From NCBI GenBank assembly GCA_900320795.1, contig ONTQ01000002.1:1-64000 (forward strand): a stretch of 64,000 nt of DNA, in the 5' to 3' direction. Under the pieces are notes generated by a model, which worked only from the letters and a program-made list of their open reading frames with translations, did not search any database and was not told the DNA's origin. Below, one piece after another: positions 28,063 to 54,792 of this stretch (position 1 is the stretch's first letter; every line of letters starts with the position of its first letter). The position numbers were made by a program, and so were the translations under genes. The DNA is from an uncultured Bacteroidales bacterium. Lineage in GTDB: Bacteria > Bacteroidota > Bacteroidia > Bacteroidales > UBA932.

Positions 28063-28866
28063 TTATCTACGGTAAATACGGTAAATGAACCAGGCCGATG
28101 CAAGCAGTCCCGCCCCGACGGCCACCACGGAAGCTTCGGCCCCGAAAGCACCGCCCGTGAGCCAGTCGGCCCCTTCGATCTGTGCCTGCAGAAGGCTTTC
28201 GCCCGCCTCCTGGCCGGACACCTTGAAACCGAAGAGGTTTCCCTGCGAGAAATTCCACGCCCAATGGATGCCGACGGGTACCCACAGCGTTCCGGACCAC
28301 TTGTAGGCCGCTCCCAGCAGCAGTCCAGCCTCGATGGCGATGGCAATGCTGCTCCACAGCGTTCCTCCCGGGTTGGTGATGTGGAGCAGGCCGAACAGCA
28401 GGGCCGATACACTGATGGCCACCCAGAAGCCCCATTTCTCGTCCAGCCAGCGGAAGAGCACGCCGCGGAACATGATTTCCTCTCCCGCCGCCACGATGGC
28501 GAAATAGCAGAACATGCTCACCAGTTCTACGGCCGAGGCTCCGACCCCCGTCACCTTATACGCTCCGGCAAGGGCCATGATGCCCGTTACCACGCAGAAA
28601 TACCCCAGGCCGATTCCAAGCCCCAGGCCCGTGTGAGCGGCCAGTTTCCCCAGCGGCACATCTTTCGCGGGATGCGACTCGAAGGCTTTGACAAAGAGGG
28701 CATAGAGAAAGACCATCATGGCAGCCGACGCCAGGCTGGCCACGCAATAGGCCCAGCCATGCGGTACCAAATCCACCAATCCGCCAAATCCATACATGAG
28801 CGTTGCCAGGAGGAACCCGGCCAGCAGCAGCCCCAGCCACTTCCAAAAAGACATATCCTTGATCAT
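28063..28866 (-). CDS. CPBP-family intramembrane metalloprotease
   Basis: 267 residues, with about seven hydrophobic segments. The CPBP/Abi motifs are present: EEIMFRGVLFRW with the Glu pair at 129-130, then FGLLHITNP with a conserved His, and a late IHWAWNF with the third ligand region. It is predicted to sit in the inner membrane; the substrate is unknown. The start at 28866 lies 4 nt from a perfect -7 box, so the first codon would be nearly leaderless; the internal ATG at 28854 (MSFWKW) is the alternative. Confidence 0.85.
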   Translation of the reverse strand: MIKDMSFWKWLGLLLAGFLLATLMYGFGGLVDLVPHGWAYCVASLASAAMMVFLYALFVKAFESHPAKDVPLGKLAAHTGLGLGIGLGYFCVVTGIMALAGAYKVTGVGASAVELVSMFCYFAIVAAGEEIMFRGVLFRWLDEKWGFWVAISVSALLFGLLHITNPGGTLWSSIAIAIEAGLLLGAAYKWSGTLWVPVGIHWAWNFSQGNLFGFKVSGQEAGESLLQAQIEGADWLTGGAFGAEASVVAVGAGLLASAWFIYRIYRR

Positions 28867-28870
28867 GTCG

Positions 28871-28878
28871 CAAATTTA
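28871..28878 (-). promoter_or_regulatory. -7 box of the CPBP gene
   Basis: The minus strand reads TAAATTTG, 4 nt before the ATG at 28866. The nearest TTTG (28903-28906 on the minus strand, spacer 24 bp) is inside the first unit of the adjoining repeat array. Confidence 0.55.
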
Positions 28879-28894
28879 GTAAAAAAACACTACC

Positions 28895-29130
28895 TCGTGC
28901 ACCAAACACCCTGTTTTCGTGCACGACATGCCCCAACCAGCCCTCTCGTGCACCAAACACCCCGTTTTCGTGCACGACATGCCTCAACCAGCCCTCTCGT
29001 GCACCAAACACCCTGTTTTCGTGCACGACATGTCCCAACCAGCCCTCTCGTGCACCAAACACCCTGTTTTCGTGCACGGCACTCCTCAACCAGCCCTCTC
29101 GTGCACCAAACACCCCGTTTTCGTGCACGG
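28895..29130. repeat. Hairpin array 1: five units, 51-bp period
   Basis: GTGCAC arms start at 28897, 28948, 28999, 29050 and 29101, exactly 51 bp apart. Each is matched by a second GTGCAC 22 bp further on. Within a unit TCGTGCAC pairs with GTGCACGA, and an inner AAACA pairs with TGTTT (or AAAC with GTTT) around CCC, giving a long stem-loop. The 19-bp linkers vary at a few bases. Because 51 is a multiple of 3, several reading frames stay open by chance; none shows coding signs. It fills the divergent gap between the CPBP gene and rnhB (28867-29179). Confidence 0.9.
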
Positions 29131-29166: not shown

Positions 29167-29174
29167 TATTTTTG
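29167..29174 (+). promoter_or_regulatory. -7 box of rnhB
   Basis: TATTTTTG, a perfect TAnnTTTG, ends 5 nt before the rnhB ATG. Confidence 0.6.
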
Positions 29175-29179
29175 TAGCG

Positions 29180-29809
29180 ATGAAACCCAAGCTGAAGGAA
29201 TATTGCGAGGCGGGAAGGCTGGAAGCCGGCTGTGATGAGGCCGGCCGGGGCCCGCTGGTCGGCCCGGTGTATGCCGCCGCGGTCATTCTTCCGCCGGATT
29301 TTCACCACCCCCTCCTGAACGACTCCAAGCAGATGAGCGAAAAGGCCCGCGAAGCACTTCGGCCCATCATCGAGGCCGAAGCCGTGGCCTTCGCGGTAGA
29401 GGCGGTCTCGGCCGAAGAAATTGACCGGCTCAACATCCTCTGGGCTTCGGTTACGGGAATGCAGCGGGCCGTGCTCCGGCTGCACCCCAGACCGGAATTT
29501 CTCCTGATTGACGGCAACAAGTTCCGCCCCTTCGGCCCGTACGGGTTCAAGGACTTCCGGACGGTGGTGCACGGGGACGCCACCTATGCCAGCATTGCGG
29601 CGGCCTCGGTCCTGGCCAAGACCTACCGGGACGAATTCATGCGCCGGCTCTCCGCCGAATACCCCCAGTACGGCTGGGACCGCAACATGGGCTACCCCAC
29701 GCCGGAACACATCGAGGCCATCCGGAAATACGGCTACACCCCCTGGCACCGCAAATCTTTCCATGTGAAAGAGTTGGAACCTTCCCTTTTCCAACCCCTG
29801 TCATTCTGA
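29180..29809 (+). CDS. rnhB: Ribonuclease HII
   Basis: 209 residues, normal length. The catalytic DE pair is in EAGCDEAGRGPLVGPVYAAA (Asp19, Glu20). Further conserved text is LNDSKQMSEKARE, LLIDGNKF, ASIAAASVLAKTYRDEFM and GYPTPEH. It cleaves the RNA strand of RNA-DNA hybrids and single ribonucleotides in DNA. The final codons LSF and the TGA stop come from the 27-bp dispersed repeat that starts at 29799. Confidence 0.96.
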   Translation: MKPKLKEYCEAGRLEAGCDEAGRGPLVGPVYAAAVILPPDFHHPLLNDSKQMSEKAREALRPIIEAEAVAFAVEAVSAEEIDRLNILWASVTGMQRAVLRLHPRPEFLLIDGNKFRPFGPYGFKDFRTVVHGDATYASIAAASVLAKTYRDEFMRRLSAEYPQYGWDRNMGYPTPEHIEAIRKYGYTPWHRKSFHVKELEPSLFQPLSF

Positions 29810-43781: not shown

Positions 43782-43871
43782 CCCTTTTGTTATTCTGAAC
43801 CCTCTTGTCATTCTGAACCCTCTTGTCCTTCTGAACCCCCTTGTCCTTCTGAACCCTTTTGTCATTCTGAA
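43782..43871 (+). repeat. Five tandem 18-bp units derived from the dispersed repeat
   Basis: Units start at 43782, 43800, 43818, 43836 and 43854 and follow CCCTCTTGTCATTCTGAA with a few substitutions. The fifth unit runs straight into the complete 27-bp element, so the array is an amplification of its 5' half. It occupies most of the thyA-folA gap. Confidence 0.9.
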
Positions 43872-43886
43872 CGAAGTGAAGAATCT
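43860..43886 (+). repeat. Dispersed 27-bp repeat, copy 5 (abuts folA start)
   Basis: TGTCATTCTGAACGAAGTGA followed by AGAATCT, identical to copy 1. It ends one base before the folA ATG at 43888. Confidence 0.85.
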
Positions 43887-44489: not shown

Positions 44490-45126
44490 CCTCTCCTCGG
44501 CAAGGACTTCGCATTTATGGGAAGTTTATTGCCAGAAACCGCGGGAGGAACAAATTTGCAAGGATCGTTGCGGCAATTTGCCCTAAGGCAGGAGACGCAA
44601 AATCAATCCCGAAAAAATCCAACGACCTTGCAAGTATCCGTGCCCGTTTCAAGGTTCCTGCTACGAAATAACCATCTGTACGAGAAAACCAAGCACGTGT
44701 TGCCCCACTTCTGTGTTGTTCTGGCAGCGCCGTGCACAAAAAGGGGCGGTTTGGTGCACGGGAGGCCGAAAAGCGAGGTGTCGTGTACGAAAAGGGCCGG
44801 TTTGGTGCACGAGAGGCCGAAAAGCGAGGTGCCGTGCACAAAAAGGTGGTGTTTGGTGCACGAGAGGGCTAAAAGCGAGGTGTCGTGCACAAAAAGGGGC
44901 GGTTTGGTGCACGAGGGGGCGAAAAGCGAGGTGCCGTGCACGAAAATGGTGTGTTTGGTGCACGGGGGGCCGAGAACCACAGCGTCGTGCACAAAAAGGG
45001 CCTTCCATAGCCGAGTGTTTCGGAACGCCGGAAGGAATTCCGAAAAAAATCAGAACGGAAAAAGGAATCAAAATAGGAAAAACAGGCCCCCGGAACGAAT
45101 CTCTTTTTTCTTGTTTAATTAAGTTG
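44383..45126. other. Long gene-poor gap between folA and galM
   Basis: Apart from the possible 40-aa ORF at its left end and hairpin array 2 (44732-44992), I see no supported gene. Long open frames cross the array only because its period is a multiple of three. The right end (45040-45120) is A-rich and leads into the galM promoter. Confidence 0.6.
44732..44992. repeat. Hairpin array 2: five full units plus one half, 51-bp period
   Basis: Left GTGCAC arms begin at 44732, 44783 (GTGTAC), 44834, 44885, 44936 and 44987. Right arms lie 22 bp later at 44754, 44805, 44856, 44907 and 44958. The last unit has no right arm. Unit 3 shares GGTGTTTGGTGCACGAGAGG with the reverse complement of array 1 units, plus the same arm offset and period, so the two arrays are homologous and inverted. 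The single changed arm (GTGTAC) still pairs through a G-T. Confidence 0.9.
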
Positions 45127-54598: not shown

Positions 54599-54623
54599 CA
54601 TAACAATCAATTCTTGGTCAATC

Positions 54624-54734
54624 GTCCGACCCTGGTGCAAAACCGTCCAATGTCGGACGAAAAGCAGGGCCAATCGTCCGACCCTGGCGCAAAACCGTCC
54701 AACGTCGGACGAAAAGCAGGGCCAAGTGTCCGAC
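54624..54734. repeat. Hairpin array 3: 52-bp period
   Basis: GTCCGAC at 54624, 54676 and 54728 alternates with GTCGGAC at 54652 and 54704. Each GTCGGACGA pairs with the TCGTCCGAC (or TGTCCGAC) 24 bp further on. The loop between, AAAGCAGGGCCAA, recalls the AAAACAGGG of array 1. It lies between the barrel gene and the small-protein promoter. Confidence 0.85.
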
Positions 54735-54792
54735 CCTGGCGCAATTGTCAAAGGGTTGAAATACGAATAGATTCGTTTTGGCGCACGGGGCG

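Follow-up and report, generated by a model that had tools for sequence, protein, structure and literature searches.

The gap between a CPBP/Rce1-like protease gene and rnhB in an uncultured Bacteroidales bacterium is occupied by tandem REP-like hairpins (array 1), which are likely to be non-autonomous mobile elements that the RAYT-like HUH-tyrosine transposase whose gene they flank would recognise and move as single strands.

Array 1 is a run of five hairpins with an exact 51-bp period

Array 1 lies in the window, which is the whole 64-kb stretch of DNA that was analysed. It consists of five hairpin units (28895..28926, 28946..28977, 28997..29028, 29048..29079 and 29099..29130, identified from the sequence and from ssDNA folds, with no strand assigned) and fills 236 of the 313 bp between the starts of the divergent genes CPBP (28063..28866, minus strand; PF02517, E 3.3e-21), to the left, and rnhB (29180..29809, plus strand; RNase HII, PF01351, E 6.4e-37), to the right. 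Each unit reads TCGTGCAC-N16-GTGCACGA, with units 4 and 5 ending in GG. The 19-bp spacers (28927..28945, 28978-28996, 29029-29047 and 29080-29098) have an array-specific sequence and a fixed length, this length being a consequence of step and unit length. The five units, the exact 51-bp period and the offset of 22 from GTGCAC to GTGCAC within a unit, as given in the initial annotation, are borne out by the sequence and by TRF (period 51, 4.6 copies, 94% match, score 416). GTGCAC occurs 31 times in the window, 20 of these inside arrays 1 and 2.

Every unit folds singly as ssDNA, at -9.5 to -11.8 kcal/mol, into a stem in which a 1/2-nt internal loop separates 7-8 outer pairs from 4-5 inner pairs. 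In five of the six single-unit folds none of 200 shuffled sequences folded as well, and for unit 5 one of 200 did. The stem of the 13-bp class that had been proposed is found in units 1, 3 and 4, whereas one inner pair is missing from units 2 and 5.

Two further arrays are present in the window. Array 2 (44731..45002, no strand assigned) belongs to the GTGCAC family, has five units and a broken sixth, runs in the direction opposite to array 1 and is located 3' of a dihydrofolate-reductase-like gene. The names menA, lepA, LytTR and dihydrofolate reductase are presumptive assignments of ours to these sequences. Array 3 (54619..54744, no strand assigned) is of a second hairpin family with a 52-bp period. 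It is similar to the flanks of a further RAYT-like gene in this genome, on contig C160 (locus L120), with 38 of 52 positions matching; none of 60 shuffles matched at more than 27 positions, and none of the remaining 76 RAYT-like loci at more than 31. The window therefore holds two families of one kind. An 18-bp repeat of a type that occurs in many bacteria is also seen, as five tandem units ending in TCATTCTGAACGAAGTGAAGAATCT at 43782-43872 and as a single related form 3' of rnhB near 29800.

The GTGCAC family in the genome and its relatives

The initial annotation had proposed to search the genome and its relatives for the unit. In the own genome (G000; 2.8 Mb, 266 contigs, 85% complete) this yields 41 GTGCAC-family units at 12 places, one of which is a single unit, and all 29 steps between neighbouring units are 51 bp; the scan listed 46 places per strand, and five isolated two-mismatch matches were counted as chance. 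A GTGCAC pair with at most two mismatches is present in 5 of 398 genomes of the family, G000 included, and G000 is the sole match to the exact unit pattern when it is compared with 60 relatives. The arms are almost invariant, and the inner bases drift, with an inner-loop identity of 0.92 within arrays versus 0.73 between arrays. The spacers are 0.84 identical within arrays (38 pairs) versus 0.56 between arrays, and the centre of 65 spacers from G000 and other genomes, taken from units 51 bp apart, is A/T-rich. Array 1 shares palindromic repeats and a regular period with CRISPR arrays, but its spacers, like those of the other arrays of G000, are near-copies of one another and not unique, in agreement with the earlier statement that it is not a CRISPR.

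A pattern scan of GTDB genome contigs gave 31 stretches, several of them unrelated. The family is found in Bacteroidales MAGs titled goat reticulum, sheep omasum and red deer, and in UBA3623 and RUG genomes. Outside G000 the units most commonly occur as a pair with a 51-bp step, which the scan pattern itself required; steps in the multi-genome counts are also partly set by the array-joining procedure, such that the unbiased count is the one from G000. At one locus (L035) a step of 83 is seen, with a broken piece between. Excluded from the family counts were L031, L033, L040, L041, L043, L045, L054, L055, L059 and L060, the viral matches L062 and L063, L037 (RUG583; three units with steps of 51 and 50 and wider arms), and L051 and L052, which have no second unit within one mismatch. 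The matches of the scan in Actinobacteria, Eisenbacteria, Clostridiales and others are due to chance or are unrelated.

The hairpins flank the gene of a long RAYT-like protein

In G000 a 7-unit GTGCAC array adjoins an intact 310-aa open frame (C141:26453-27367). On the other side of this frame a 2-unit array is found, separated from it by one gene, which we take to be menA-like. A homolog of the 310-aa gene is present in UBA3623 (G440) in the same arrangement, and in both genomes the two arrays are mutually inverted, with another gene between. The initial annotation had counted a location inside known transposons against selection of the array for structure or binding, and what is observed comes close to such a location, the hairpins flanking a transposase-like gene.

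The protein has the motifs NHFH and YV[IVL]RN. Among 40 homologs N65, H68 and Y124 (the latter in the numbering of the UBA3623 protein) are invariant, and H66 is conserved in at least 90%. The HUH motif and the one tyrosine that define TnpA-Y1 proteins are thus both present in this long RAYT-like protein, and the tyrosine is the predicted catalytic residue. The predicted structure of the homolog has a pLDDT of 89.5, and its best structural match is 4er8, the E. coli REP-associated tyrosine transposase bound to a REP hairpin; the matches cover mainly residues 10-220 of the model, which has the Y1 fold as predicted. The UBA3623 protein stays below the curated cut-offs of NF047646 (17.6 of 80 bits) and PF01797 (13.8 of 23); at E values up to 0.1, 36 and 23 of the 40 homologs, respectively, match these models.

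Homologs occur in 268 of the 398 family genomes, often several per genome, and G000 has ten (weakest E 2.9e-5). The order was represented by 247 genomes, including four of the own family; matches that span most of the model are found in G000 and G082 only, and in the remaining genomes the match is limited to the Y1 part of mostly shorter proteins. Two of the five genomes with a GTGCAC pair match the RAYT-like protein poorly, G407 weakly (E 2.6e-21) and G446 not at all. In RGIG3283 the RAYT-like gene (L053:1249-2205, the locus ending within this gene) is on the same strand as the adjacent response-regulator-like gene, and in the own genome (L069) it is on the strand opposite to this neighbour; the difference would be accounted for if the segment that separates the two arrays had inverted.

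Hairpin pairs with a 50- to 52-bp step accompany the long RAYT-like genes

The flanks of the long RAYT-like genes of the GTDB family were searched (900 bp on each side) for two units with inverted arms at every period from 30 to 80, and pairs at 50-52 bp are found at 66 of 77 loci. A period of 51 bp is seen at 48 loci, 52 at 17, 50 at 8 and 53 at 2, and each of the other periods at 0 to 2. No 50-52-bp pairs were detected in the gene bodies or in the flanks shuffled once each with dinucleotides kept. The 77 loci, which are related to each other (L138 and L140 carry identical flank sequences), remain from 79 that were fetched, as L121 and L124 gave no tblastn match and were dropped; 40 had been hand-picked from the homolog list before the flanks were viewed. 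Around genes of shorter Y1 proteins (median 196 aa; 27 of 28 control loci used, 26 from other families and L245 from the own family), a pair is seen at 1 of 27 loci. Among the 11 loci without a pair is L086 of UBA3623, though its degenerate pairs appear in the two-mismatch scan.

The arms vary among the loci (CGTGCAC, CGAGCAC, CATCCTC, TCGTCCT, CGTGCGG and others), and their complementarity across families is partly selected for by the search, which demands inverted arms. The feature common to the hairpin families is the step of 50-52 bp, whereas the unit span differs among them, mostly between 21 and 33 nt, and for this reason the 22-bp offset is specific to the GTGCAC family. Pairs are present on both flanks at 27 loci and on one flank at 39; of the 27, 21 are in direct orientation, 2 are inverted and 4 are unclear. 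A GT[AG]G foot is found at 6 of 364 hairpin feet, the mean for shuffled sequences being 13.9 (sd 3.3). No description of the 51-bp rule was found in the accessible portions of PMC6006769, PMC3733652, PMC12306157, PMC2817692 and PMC8266576.

These observations also bear on the rather unlikely explanation that the arrays are ordinary minisatellites, generated locally when 51-bp units slip or recombine unequally, without any mobile element. Such an origin would be in agreement with units and spacers being more similar within than between arrays, and with copy numbers that differ at orthologous places (5 versus 8 units, 3 versus 2, 1 versus 2). It does not account for identical arms and the 51-bp step recurring at 12 places with different spacers, for two-unit pairs in other genomes that are exactly 51 bp apart with an inner-loop identity down to 0.44 (these loci being fetched by a 51-bp pattern), or for a step that is common to the hairpin families next to RAYT-like genes even though their sequences differ.

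The CPBP–rnhB gap in related genomes

The gap was compared in 32 sequences (the window, L035 and L165-L194, two of them from the own genome). The divergent CPBP-rnhB pair is present in the own genome and in 7 others, and in the remaining 23 no CPBP match adjoins rnhB. The gap of 313 bp with five units in the own genome corresponds to 514 bp with eight units in RGIG3283. In G448 the gap measures 191 bp and contains three CATCCT units with a 51-bp step, in G501 it measures 141 bp and contains one GGCCAC pair with a 52-bp step, and in G005, G369, G507 and G330 it is 37, 38, 64 and 69 bp long, with no array. The occurrence of three hairpin families in one gap that is empty in four genomes points to insertion and tolerance and not to a needed regulator; with respect to CPBP and rnhB, array 1 is most likely a tolerated insertion, which spares the -7-like box of rnhB.

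It is quite improbable, when considering the same gaps, that array 1 is a phased protein-binding array, such as an operator or a nucleoid-protein site, that regulates CPBP and rnhB. The regular phasing, the palindromic GTGCAC half-sites and the position between divergent starts would suit such a role, and in the usual promoter layout part of unit 1 is where the CPBP -33 element would be, a spacing that was judged by eye; however, four of the eight genomes with the divergent pair have a gap of 37-69 bp without an array, two have hairpins of another sequence, and sister arrays are found inside genes and after genes. The initial annotation had the array selected for structure or as phased binding sites, and structure and phasing are indeed kept, but a function tied to this gap does not agree with the empty and differently filled gaps. 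The TTTG of unit 1, which had been placed near the CPBP -7 box, is present on the minus strand but is 24 bp away from the box, and the usual Bacteroides -33/-7 spacing is shorter than this.

The -7 box consensus is TAnnTTTG, and similar boxes are seen at 28871-28878 (minus strand, TAAATTTG) for CPBP and at 29167-29174 (plus strand, TATTTTTG) for rnhB. Both end a few bases 5' of the start codons, which suggests, as judged from the sequence, leaderless transcripts or transcripts with a very short leader. Similar boxes are present 5' of rnhB in L168 and L169, where the gap is empty.

It is very unlikely that the hairpins are primarily transcribed RNA structures acting as bidirectional terminators or mRNA stabilisers. 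Unit 1 is stable on either strand when folded as DNA, and such roles are held for REPs of other bacteria in the part of PMC3733652 that is available; against this, no T run is present 3' of the stems, the 64-kb window has no Rfam match at gathering scores, five units would be redundant, and the in-frame copies in atpG would do harm as terminators. A role as RNA hairpins is possible as a side effect. The suggestion that open frames through array 1 encode a repeated peptide, for which stop-free frames of 323 aa (plus strand) and 412 aa (minus strand) across the array and a period of 17 codons could be adduced, is extremely unlikely, as these frames overlap CPBP and rnhB on the opposite strand or in another frame, the arms are constant while the inner bases differ between the own genome and RGIG3283, and other families have steps of 50 and 52 as well.

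The rnhB gene itself varies in length in about a dozen relatives; in-frame hairpins were considered as the cause and rejected, the variation being due to an ordinary variable loop. In G276, G281, G389, G237 and others (L195-L206) this RNase HII loop, around position 120, is longer by up to about 50 residues; it is present in part of the genus and is not hairpin DNA.

Hairpin copies inside reading frames

Array 1 is not maintained as coding DNA, as had been stated, but this does not extend to its sister elements, which are in frame in atpG and tilS (own genome and RGIG3283), in ribF (RUG11827) and in an FGE-sulfatase-like gene (RUG11827 and UBA3623). Of 31 atpG coding sequences, 5 have 51-bp pairs in the loop, and four types of arm are represented: GTGCAC (own genome and RGIG3283), TCGTCCTT (G369), CGTCC (G453) and CGTGCG (G347). 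Seven of the 31 coding sequences gave one or two weak matches at other periods, and for this reason only the 51-bp pairs seen in the sequence were counted. A second loop of the own atpG (L067:5428-5503) contains an unrelated in-frame palindrome of 76 bp with 18-bp arms, GGGAGAAGACTCCCTTTC/GAAAGGGAGTCTTCTCCC. Its predicted peptide is SGAFARTGSRSDAEERESSP, a similar peptide is found in atpG of G369 and G028, and the stretch matches several other places of G019.

Comparison with known systems

The system is probably of the REP/RAYT type with a RAYT-like enzyme and differs from a canonical REPtron. The assignment to this type is based on the hairpins, on their scattering and on the location of the Y1 enzyme gene next to hairpins of its own family. 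As in the REP/RAYT systems of Proteobacteria (REPtrons, BIMEs and REPINs), short palindromic hairpins are present at many places and in clusters, more than one family exists per genome, and the hairpins that flank the gene have copies elsewhere in the genome, these copies being counted for the GTGCAC family alone. It is not a canonical REPtron, as the GT[AG]G foot is absent, pairing is fixed at 50-52 bp and the protein, of about 310 aa, is longer than most RAYTs, when compared with the accessible descriptions in PMC2817692, PMC6006769 and PMC8266576. The orientation of the flanks is mixed, being mostly direct across the clade (21 of 27) and inverted in the GTGCAC family itself. Among the class 2 lengths given in the part of PMC6006769 that is available, only subclass 2.3 is as long (325 aa, 'no' REP).

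The nearest published group, compared by description only, is TnpA-Y1 subclass 2.6 (Bertels RAYT group 5). According to the accessible part of PMC6006769, this subclass is from Bacteroidetes and has 'atypical secondary structures', a length of 179 aa and the Y motif YIH[QN]NP. It resembles the present system in its host group, its NHxH motif and the atypical hairpins that flank the gene and have genomic copies, whereas the protein described here has about 310 aa and the motif YV[IVL]RN; no mention of a 51-bp phase or of a 310-aa protein was found for subclass 2.6 in the same part of that paper. Rickettsia palindromic elements and intragenic GTAG/CGTC REPs are also palindromes, often dimers, inside coding genes, but the CGTC families, which are taken to include RPE-4 and RPE-6, have no transposase association and variable dimer spacers (PMC3733652, available part), unlike the fixed step and the RAYT-like gene found here.

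Proposed mechanism and implications

It is possible to combine the REP-like hairpins and the RAYT-like enzyme into the following scheme. The enzyme would bind the hairpins on single-stranded DNA, and Y124 (of the UBA3623 protein) would cut beside them, by which a two-hairpin element may be copied or moved to a new place. The arrays would then grow locally in 51-bp units, as suggested by the units being more alike within an array than between arrays. The fixed step may reflect a protein that grips two hairpins at once, perhaps via its extra C-terminal part.

More tentatively, the system could represent, in one Bacteroidales family, a branch of its own within single-strand transposition. A long RAYT, extended by a C-terminal domain, would then handle two hairpins simultaneously at a fixed pitch of 51 nt and move them together as one unit, which in most members would have direct ends and would resemble an IS200/IS605 element reduced to about 83 bp. 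Landing in frame, in 17-codon units, such elements might give a new peptide to loops such as that of AtpG, which would have been entered by different hairpin families in different species.

The spread of REPs is described as still poorly understood in the accessible part of PMC8266576. With many RAYT-hairpin pairs in one family that have a common 50-52-bp pitch and differing arms, the recognition rule becomes testable. The hairpins in the frames of ATP synthase gamma, TilS and RibF are a natural experiment on the uptake of peptides by proteins. For annotators of gut Bacteroidales, the 51-bp rule offers a way to locate RAYT-like genes together with their elements.
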